Positions 21,902 to 24,170 of a stretch of 64,000 bases of DNA are shown here, piece by piece (the first letter of the stretch is position 1; each line of letters starts with the position of its first letter). The notes below the pieces were generated by a model. The model was not told where the DNA came from. It saw only the letters and a program-made list of their open reading frames with translations, and ran no database searches. A program made the position numbers and the translations under genes. The stretch is from assembly GCF_023276355.1 (NCBI RefSeq), contig NZ_JALLPL010000001.1:1364001-1428000 (forward strand), in the 5' to 3' direction. The stretch comes from Haloplanus sp. XH21. Lineage in GTDB: Archaea; Halobacteriota; Halobacteria; Halobacteriales; Haloferacaceae.

Positions 21902-22051
21902 GCCCGGGCCGACGACAGCCAAGTGGTTAATCGTTCGGTTGGGGGCGGTTCCCATGCTTGGCCCGAGTCGAACCCCACGGGCGTCGCCCTCGCCCGCGAC
22001 GGCCGTAGTCGAACGGAACACGCATATGGGAGACCCTCGAATCGCGGGGCG

Positions 22052-22543
22052 ATGACGCTGTCAGCAGCAGAACGCGACCGACTGGCGGACATCGTCCGTC
22101 TCCAGCCGACGAAAAACAGCGAACTCCAGGAGCGCTGGGGGCTCGACAGCGGCAGCGAGGTCCACTCGTATCTCGAAGAGCATCTGAGTGACTACTACTA
22201 CCGCAACGAGAACAGCTACATCTGCGCGACGCCCGAGGCGGCGGATATCACGGGCGTCGAACCAGGTCTTGAGGGTGGCGAGGACGGCCCACAGGTCATC
22301 CGCGTCCCCGAACTCGAAGCGCAGGTGTTCGCGGTCGTGGCGGGTCCCGATGACCGCTCCGAGAGCGTCGTGAGTGTCCTCCAGAAGGTGCGCGAGCGGT
22401 TCGACGCCGACCCCGATGTCGACGCGGTGCGGGAGGCGCTCCAAAGCCTGCGCCAGAAGGGCGTCGTCGACGTCGTCTACCGCACCGTGCCGACGTTCAA
22501 ACTCGCCGTCGAGCGCGACAGCGTCGACGTCGAGACGCTGTAG
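22052..22543 (+). CDS. Conserved haloarchaeal winged-helix-like protein (DUF5797-like)
   Basis: 163 residues starting MTLSAAERDRLADIVRLQPTKNSELQERWGL. The first part looks like a winged helix (LQPTKNSELQERWGLDSGSEVHSYLEEHLSDYYYRNENSYICAT), and the C-terminal half (SVVSVLQKVRERFDADPDVDAVREALQSLRQKGVVDVVYRTVPTFKLA) like a second helix-turn-helix with wing. I remember the family as DUF5797 (unverified). Probably DNA- or RNA-binding. Its stop abuts the convergent nuclease-like gene. Confidence 0.75.
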   Translation: MTLSAAERDRLADIVRLQPTKNSELQERWGLDSGSEVHSYLEEHLSDYYYRNENSYICATPEAADITGVEPGLEGGEDGPQVIRVPELEAQVFAVVAGPDDRSESVVSVLQKVRERFDADPDVDAVREALQSLRQKGVVDVVYRTVPTFKLAVERDSVDVETL

Positions 22544-23533
22544 TCAGCGGTGCCGGCGACGGCGACGCGCGAGCAGTCGCTGGATCGCCTTGCCCGGCCC
22601 GCCCTCGATGGGCCAGCCACGCGTGCGCCAGGCCGGCGGCTCCGGTGCGAACGACGGACAGGAGCCGGAACATTCCGCCGCCGTCTGGTGGCAGTCCTTC
22701 GCGTCACACCAGGGGACGAACGCACTCGCGCGCTCGCGGAGTTCGAACGACCGACAGTCGGGGCGCATCGTTTCGACGTACGACCGCCACCCGGCGCCGT
22801 AGGCCCGCTCCGCCAGCCGTAACCGTTTCTCGGCTTTCTCCGCTGCCGGCAGCGTGGTATCCGTCGTCGGGTCGAGGGTCGCGGGCAACCAGGTCACGTC
22901 GGCGTCGGGAATCGGGTGGTCGCCGTCGGCCGACAGCGCCAGCACGCCCGCCTCGACGGGGAGGTCTTCGAGCAGCGCGGGTTCGACCGTCTCGCCCGTC
23001 GCGGCGGTGGCGACCCACACCTCGTCGGCCAGCGCCGTCGACACGTCGTGGTCGAGTTGGTCGCCGAGGCGACGGGCCGCACTCGCCGACAGGTCGGGCT
23101 TGTTCTCGATGGCGACGATGCGGCGCACCCAGTCGGGGTAGGGCGCGACCTGCCGGATCTGAATGCGGTTGCCGTCGCGGCGCGTCTCGACGGCGCCCCG
23201 CGCGTCGGCCCGGTGGATCGCCTCGCGGACGTACCGCCAGGGGTAGCCCGGGTCGGGCAGCGCGTCGCGGTACCACGCCCACTCGTCGGAGGCGTTGCGG
23301 ACGATATGCAGGCGGTCCGAGTCGAGCGTCTCCGCGCCGAAGGCGGCCCGGGCCGCGAGCCCCTCGGGGTCGGCCTCGACGACGACGGTGTCCCAGCGTC
23401 GCTTCCGGGTGCCGAGTTGGCGGGCGACGATCGGGACGGTGTCCGCCTCGCGGTGGGGTGGCCACGCGCGCTCGGCCCACCGGCAGGTGACGAGTTCGAA
23501 GCCGAACTCGGCGTCGCCTGGGAAGCCGGTCAC
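22544..23533 (-). CDS. Haloarchaeal PD-(D/E)xK-like protein (DUF5787-like)
   Basis: 329 residues, GTG start. Residues near the middle read YPDWVRRIVAIENKPDLSAS, a PD-x8-ENK signature of PD-(D/E)xK nucleases, followed by LGDQLDHDVSTALADEVWVATA, where a QxxxY-like helix is expected. A C-terminal cysteine cluster, FVPWCDAKDCHQTAAECSGSCPSF, recalls the Fe-S cysteines of Cas4/AddB/Dna2 nucleases. N-terminal ELVTCRWAERAWPP and VPIVARQLGTRKRRWDTVVVEAD are conserved in haloarchaea as far as I recall (DUF5787). No neighbouring repair or CRISPR gene. Nuclease activity is inferred from motifs only. Confidence 0.75.
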   Translation of the reverse strand: MTGFPGDAEFGFELVTCRWAERAWPPHREADTVPIVARQLGTRKRRWDTVVVEADPEGLAARAAFGAETLDSDRLHIVRNASDEWAWYRDALPDPGYPWRYVREAIHRADARGAVETRRDGNRIQIRQVAPYPDWVRRIVAIENKPDLSASAARRLGDQLDHDVSTALADEVWVATAATGETVEPALLEDLPVEAGVLALSADGDHPIPDADVTWLPATLDPTTDTTLPAAEKAEKRLRLAERAYGAGWRSYVETMRPDCRSFELRERASAFVPWCDAKDCHQTAAECSGSCPSFAPEPPAWRTRGWPIEGGPGKAIQRLLARRRRRHR

Positions 23534-23578: not shown

Positions 23579-24049
23579 CTACCCGAGATAGGTCCGTTCG
23601 CGGTCCGCTTCCTCCGCATCGACCTCGGTCACGAGGTCGTCGAGATAGTCGTGGGCGTCCTCGAGGATCTGGCGGGGGCCGTCCTGGGTGATCGTGTTGA
23701 TCGCCTGGTCGTAGTCGCGCCACTGCAGGTCGCGGTGTTCGTTCGAGAGCTCGGCGCTCGCCTCGAACGACCGGGCGATGAACAGGTGGACCGTCTTGTG
23801 GATGGTGTTGCCGCCTGCCTCGAACACGTAGTCGTACTCCTCGCGAAAGCCGTCGATGAGCCGGAAGTCTTCGATGCCGGCCTCCTCGGTGACTTCTCTG
23901 ATCGCAGTCTGCTGGAGTTCCTCGTCGCCTTCGACCCCGCCCTTGGGGAACTCCCAGTCCCCCGGTCGGCTCTTCAGGAGCAAGTACTCCCGATGGCCAC
24001 GGGTGTCGCGGAAGAGGATGGCTCCAGCACTGGTCGCTTCAACCGTCAT
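23579..24049 (-). CDS. Nudix hydrolase (Ap4A-hydrolase-like)
   Basis: 156 residues. A complete Nudix box lies at residues 37-59 (GGVEGDEELQQTAIREVTEEAGI), all conserved glycines and glutamates present. The opening VEATSAGAILFRDTRGHREYLLLKSRPGDWEFPKG is typical of diadenosine-tetraphosphate hydrolases, which remove Ap4A, but other nucleoside-diphosphate substrates are possible. ATG 24047-24049 replaces a longer frame starting in the neighbouring repeat element. The tail is acidic. Confidence 0.92.
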   Translation of the reverse strand: MTVEATSAGAILFRDTRGHREYLLLKSRPGDWEFPKGGVEGDEELQQTAIREVTEEAGIEDFRLIDGFREEYDYVFEAGGNTIHKTVHLFIARSFEASAELSNEHRDLQWRDYDQAINTITQDGPRQILEDAHDYLDDLVTEVDAEEADRERTYLG

Positions 24050-24094
24050 TACCCGCAGTAAGCGGTCATGGGTTATAGGGTCTTCGAGGGAGTG

Positions 24095-24170
24095 TAGGGG
24101 GCATCGGCCGTCCGCAGGGATTCTCGCCAAAATGGCCCGGCGAGAACCGCTCGACAGGTGTCACCCCCTA
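24095..24170. repeat. Intergenic palindromic repeat copy
   Basis: Terminal inverted repeat TAGGGGG / CCCCCTA. Core TTCTCGCC (24121-24128) / GGCGAGAA (24139-24146), loop AAAATGGCCC. Inner arms GCATCGGCCGTCCGCAGG and CGCTCGACAGGTGTC follow the family pattern with more substitutions than other copies. Lies between the divergent Nudix and uS10-like genes. Confidence 0.75.

Follow-up and report, generated by a model that had tools for sequence, protein, structure and literature searches.

What does the protein encoded at positions 22,544–23,533 of the window do in the haloarchaeal cell? The window, here and below, is the whole 64,000-nucleotide stretch of Haloplanus sp. XH21 DNA that was analysed. 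An earlier note, made from the letters of this DNA, had placed the protein in a haloarchaeal family labelled only as unknown. This label is correct: a Pfam profile search identifies a full member of PF19100 (DUF5787; E = 1.2e-106, residues 35–297), which has no assigned function in Pfam, and the name ‘DUF5787’ appears nowhere in the literature searched. The window protein scores 356.9 bits against this profile and a second copy in the same genome, hereafter B, scores 314 bits, compared with a curated cut-off of 25. DUF5787 is the sole Pfam match of the window protein at E ≤ 1, and the PF06319 (MmcB-like) profile is not matched. Likewise, the window protein matched no NCBIfam, PADLOC or PHROGs family, no known nuclease at the sequence level, and no solved structure in a sequence search of the PDB. 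The gene (Table 1) starts in the same region as its orthologues and is read from the minus strand, which the earlier note did not mention. In the residue numbering used below, the first codon base of residue n lies at 23533 − 3(n − 1).

Table 1. Coordinates of the DUF5787 genes, their neighbours and the main elements of paralogue A (window positions, except for paralogue B).
Feature	Position	Strand	Remarks
DUF5787 paralogue A	22544..23533	minus	329 aa, GTG start
Paralogue B, Haloplanus sp. XH21	C1:143749-144720	minus	Second DUF5787 copy, same genome
NUDIX hydrolase	23579..24130	minus	PF00293, 9.1e-18; directly upstream of A, 45-bp gap
DUF5797 gene	21923..22543	plus	PF19110, 1.5e-79; convergent with A, abutting
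Helix αA, residues 9–23	23465..23509	minus	Invariant E9, E13, E21, plus C17; AlphaFold2/DSSP
C17 codon	23483-23485	minus	Helix 1; fifth near-invariant Cys, in all A and 43/48 B
β1 (33–41; RQ.G) and β2 (46–54)	23372..23437	minus	Invariant R45, D48; AlphaFold2, conservation
D48 codon	23390-23392	minus	Proposed catalytic Asp
Winged-helix (ArsR/SmtB-like) domain, residues 56–128	23150..23368	minus	Between β2 and β3; AlphaFold2, Foldseek
D134, β3 (136–144), E143-N144-K145	23099..23134	minus	D134 variable; (D/E)XK motif; AlphaFold2, conservation
Helix αB, residues 150–165	23039..23086	minus	Invariant Q159 and D163 (QxxxD); AlphaFold2, conservation
C260, C276, C288, C292	22658..22756	minus	Predicted [4Fe-4S] or Zn site; 127/127 A, 48/48 B
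C281 codon	22691-22693	minus	Unconserved Cys, mostly Arg in the family
Basic C-terminal helix of A, residues 312–328, ..KAIQRLLARRRRRHR	22547..22600	minus	Arg-rich, conserved in A; B has its PIP box there

Two paralogues across the Halobacteria

Of 242 Halobacteria genomes, 240 encode DUF5787, as a rule in two copies, and Haloferax volcanii, used as a control for the search, carries it. The two genomes without a match are small (1.9 and 2.1 Mb, in assemblies 98% and 92% complete), for which loss or an early branch is a possible explanation. Nine genomes, several of one genus, yield three matches each, which could reflect a third paralogue or split matches. In a draw across the whole phylum, 81 of 393 genomes matched, 80 of them Halobacteria; the single match outside the class is weak and was discarded as a methionyl-tRNA synthetase aligned by chance in the cysteine tail.

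The sampled proteins split cleanly into two groups, A, which includes the window gene, and B, with none intermediate: bit scores are roughly 300–500 inside either group and 44–95 across them. B was matched in 115 of 116 genomes searched, and all 48 B sequences in the tree fall into one clade with support of 1.0, set on a long branch. A and B most likely arose by a duplication before the Halobacteria radiated, since both copies occur in nearly every genome.

Active-site residues

Conservation was counted at selected positions across 175 distinct sequences, 127 of A and 48 of B. Residues E9, E13, E21, R38, Q39, G41, R45, D48, R62, P133, W135, E143, K145, P146, L148, Q159, D163, C260, C276, C288, C292 and R303 are invariant in both paralogues. 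The PD-x8-ENK signature noticed earlier is present as YPDWVRRIVAIENKPDL (P133-D134-x8-E143-N144-K145), and its Glu and Lys never change, but its Asp had been mis-assigned. Residue 134 is variable in A (111 D, 6 N, 5 E, 4 A and 1 Q among 127) and in B (34 D, 9 E and others in the remainder of 48), and for this reason D134 is rejected as the catalytic Asp. D48, in the strand preceding the ExK strand, is conserved in 127/127 A and 48/48 B and is therefore the better candidate; it is probably the catalytic Asp. An invariant Asp in β2 followed by a (D/E)xK motif in β3 is the arrangement by which a PD-(D/E)XK site is recognized, and DUF5787 has it in D48, E143 and K145. The QxxxD-type helix was read correctly: Q159xxxD163 lies in the helix after the ExK strand, with both residues invariant, and the RecB-type QxxxY motif is not matched because an invariant Asp (D163) replaces the Tyr. 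Together, the strength of the DUF5787 match and the invariance of E143, K145, Q159 and D163 in both paralogues indicate that these motifs are real and not due to chance.

The cysteine cluster

Four C-terminal cysteines had been singled out at residues 276, 281, 288 and 292. Three of them are indeed invariant, but C281 is rejected as a metal ligand, being mostly Arg across the family, and the place of the fourth is taken by C260, which precedes C276 by 16 residues. In the window protein, the invariant set is spaced C-x15-C-x11-C-x3-C, entirely C-terminal. A check on the conserved Asp, Glu, Lys and Cys, which the earlier note had called for, was thus answered in part: E143, K145 and three of the cysteines stood, D134 and C281 did not. 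Five of the 48 B sequences have Ser or Ala at the position of C17, in the first helix, while keeping the other four cysteines. Cas4 and AddB have one ligand cysteine on the N-terminal side of the nuclease domain and three on its C-terminal side (PMC3466216); crystals of a related fold contain Zn (PMC3466216). With four C-terminal cysteines, and with C17 lost in some B sequences, the layout is unlike that of Cas4/AddB, and the label of a Cas4/AddB-type enzyme that had been given to the window protein does not fit.

Predicted fold

An AlphaFold2 model of paralogue A, built from the window protein aligned with 79 orthologues, has a mean pLDDT of 82.1 and a pTM of 0.82. The predicted order is αA-β1-β2-[wHTH]-β3-αB-β4, in which β4 spans residues 171–177 and is followed by more strands and helices and then by the cysteine region. 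This is the α-β-β-β-α-β core of PD-(D/E)XK proteins with a winged helix inserted between β2 and β3. D48 is placed near the start of β2, E143-x-K145 ends β3, and Q159 lies in the next helix. The winged helix has a pLDDT of about 93–97 over most of the domain, and its Foldseek matches in the PDB are NolR, SmtB and SrnR. A second model, made for an orthologue from 57 sequences, is weaker (pLDDT 70, pTM 0.62), with the order of the core elements unchanged and PDB matches again mainly to the winged helix.

Foldseek against the PDB returned no significant full-length match, the best rows being the inserted winged helix (NolR, SmtB); the type IIS enzyme PaqCI aligned over 241 columns with E = 0.28. 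Against BFVD, a collection of viral predicted structures, the first-ranked match is a 172-aa phage protein (E = 8.9e-4, 277 columns, target TM 0.55), and the names MmcB, MmcB-like and DNA repair appear at ranks 2, 6, 8 and 18, with target TM up to 0.57. Several of these alignments exceed the length of the target by about 100 columns, as expected if the alignment skips the winged-helix insertion. A 173-aa CDS of phage ACP17, which its length and phage of origin suggest to be the rank-2 match, contains ECDLLAI followed by IIDIEVK, the same order of D and then ExK as in DUF5787, together with a sub-threshold PF06319 match. MmcB has been described as a PD-(D/E)XK endonuclease (PMC9578287). Profile alignment (hhalign) of DUF5787 with haloarchaeal Hjc, NucS and Cas4 gave no signal, and the positive controls Hjc-NucS and NucS-Cas4 were equally negative. 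The order of predicted secondary structure, the placement of the invariant residues and the MmcB-type matches all agree with the PD-(D/E)XK fold first read from the sequence, and we regard this fold as a highly probable prediction, the active site being likewise a prediction of the model.

The tail of paralogue B

The pattern Q..[LIM]..[FWY] occurs in the last 25 residues of 48/48 distinct B sequences, mostly as QSGLDRF, and paralogue B of Haloplanus sp. XH21 ends in QTGLDQFT. Among shuffled tails, the pattern fell within the last 12 residues in 0.2% of cases. The matches to B extend to the final residues in nearly every genome. A PIP-type box (QxxhxxF/Y/W) was found in 0/80 tails of A, searched over the last 40 residues. 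Haloarchaeal FEN1 proteins end in QTGLDRWT or QTGLDQFT, and Nre proteins carry related boxes; both are PCNA partners through PIP motifs (PMC4929162). NucS, an archaeal nuclease of the RecB family, is recruited to PCNA through a PIP motif at its C-terminus (PMC4929162). Haloarchaea usually possess NucS too. The sequence of the B tail is in essence that of the PCNA-binding box on FEN1 from the same haloarchaea, and B would be expected to bind PCNA. Neither paralogue B nor its PIP box figured in the earlier note.

Genomic context

Paralogue A sits in a recurrent neighbourhood: over 102 loci, a NUDIX gene is found in 89, the gene for ribosomal protein S10 in 87 and DUF5797 in 84. In the window, the NUDIX hydrolase likely starts near 24049 and the DUF5797 gene near 22052. 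DUF5797 is another family of unknown function, with weak matches only to winged-helix models, and the substrate of the NUDIX neighbour may be relevant to what A does. Around B lie genes named, from a reading of their sequences, as eIF2-gamma, a PIN/PilT-like protein, RpoE, S24 and Kae1-Bud32, and parts of this neighbourhood recur in up to 16–18 of 26 loci. Relatives of DUF5787 are absent from the viral contigs and phage records searched, and one of 72,556 plasmid records, 828 kb in size, contains one. For DUF5787, conserved synteny together with scarcity among phage, viral and plasmid sequences points to a chromosomal housekeeping role in replication or repair and not in defence. Of the two roles suggested earlier for this protein, repair is plausible on this evidence.

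Proposed mechanism and alternative readings

We consider it fairly probable that paralogue A, one of a pair fixed in the Halobacteria, is a metal-dependent PD-(D/E)XK nuclease and that B operates at the clamp. The family assignment, the distribution, the duplication, the invariant residues and the identity of the PIP box come directly from the computations. The nuclease activity of DUF5787, its substrate, its metal (Fe-S or Zn) and its pathway are what we infer from the evidence above, and they could be arranged as follows. Residues D48, E143 and K145, aided by E13 and E21 of helix A and by Q159, would bind Mg2+ or Mn2+ and hydrolyse a phosphodiester bond, while the winged helix between the catalytic strands would grip duplex DNA beside the active site, and the C-terminal four-cysteine site, as a [4Fe-4S] cluster or Zn, would hold the terminal part in place. 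PCNA would deliver B to primer ends or nicks, where B could serve in replication-coupled repair or process flaps, gaps or crosslinks. Paralogue A, with its Arg-rich terminal helix, may work independently of the clamp. Since B shares the active site and the cysteines and adds a FEN1-type PIP box, the sliding clamp is the most likely site of its action on DNA. This FEN1-type tag on B suggests that the DUF5787 pair are core replication or repair enzymes.

The same nuclease could instead cut RNA, in tRNA or mRNA quality control, and its surroundings lend this reading some colour, with A adjoining S10 and NUDIX genes and B lying in a cluster of eIF2-gamma, RpoE, S24 and Kae1-Bud32. Ribosomal-cluster neighbourhoods, however, contain many unrelated informational genes, the nearest named structural relatives are DNA repair nucleases, and a PCNA box of the FEN1 type in every distinct B sequence points to DNA, so that we hold an RNA substrate to be unlikely. 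The protein could also be a DNA-binding regulator with a nuclease fold but no catalytic activity; its working part would be the winged helix, which is also the best-modelled and best-matching part of the protein. Catalytically dead relatives of nucleases usually lose their active-site residues, whereas the acidic and Lys residues here are invariant in 175 sequences of two paralogues; a regulator of this kind is quite unlikely.

Strict membership of the Cas4/AddB-type Fe-S nucleases draws on the PD-(D/E)XK core, on a QxxxD helix that resembles the QxxxY of RecB, and on the C-terminal cysteines together with C17, which all A sequences keep. We reject it on the cysteine layout set out above, in which the N-terminal cysteine is lost from some B sequences and the three-cysteine C-terminal set of the known enzymes (PMC3466216) is replaced by a set of four; the core is also split in the model by a 73-residue winged helix, and the membership is very improbable. 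Finally, a restriction-type or anti-virus nuclease would be in keeping with the weak similarity to PaqCI and with the many PD-(D/E)XK enzymes that serve restriction or defence. A near-universal, syntenic core gene that has no PADLOC match, one plasmid record and no viral or phage record speaks against it: defence is rejected on synteny and distribution as extremely unlikely, and the action against foreign DNA that had been suggested for the window protein is not supported. The reading to which we return is that of a nuclease pair acting on DNA.

Significance

If this nuclease reading is true, nearly every haloarchaeon, model species included, has a core replication or repair activity that is missing from the usual repair inventory. 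Haloferax volcanii is one of the main organisms for genetic work on archaeal replication and repair. Two unannotated core nucleases, of which one apparently binds PCNA, would close a gap in its repair inventory. The reading also provides a class-wide Pfam family, DUF5787, with a proposed function. The family itself was already known, without a function; a PD-(D/E)XK pair with a PCNA-docked member is, to our knowledge, a new interpretation of it. We know of no description, for the PD-(D/E)XK superfamily, of a winged helix between the catalytic strands combined with a terminal four-cysteine metal site. The full statement, of a lineage-wide pair of metal-cluster PD-(D/E)XK nucleases that have a winged helix in the catalytic core and of which one docks on PCNA through a FEN1-type box, is one of which we are half convinced.

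Comparison with known systems

Among known systems, MmcB-like proteins (PF06319) provide the best-named structural matches and share with DUF5787 the succession of a helix, a strand, a strand with D and a strand with ExK. They differ in having no sequence-level match to it and in size: the matched proteins have 149–211 aa, which leaves no room for the winged helix and the cysteine tail. MmcB reportedly confers resistance to mitomycin C in Caulobacter. NucS/EndoMS resembles the proposed B in its PIP-mediated recruitment to PCNA, but has another N-terminal domain and no detectable sequence similarity to DUF5787. With FEN1, of the XPG family, B has in common the clamp-binding tag alone; the nuclease fold is unrelated, and A is without the tag. 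The Cas4/AddB/Dna2-type Fe-S nucleases share with DUF5787 a PD-(D/E)XK core, a Q-containing helix and a C-terminal cysteine site, from which DUF5787 departs by four C-terminal cysteines in place of one plus three, a winged-helix insertion, an Asp at the position of the Tyr of QxxxY and a housekeeping synteny.
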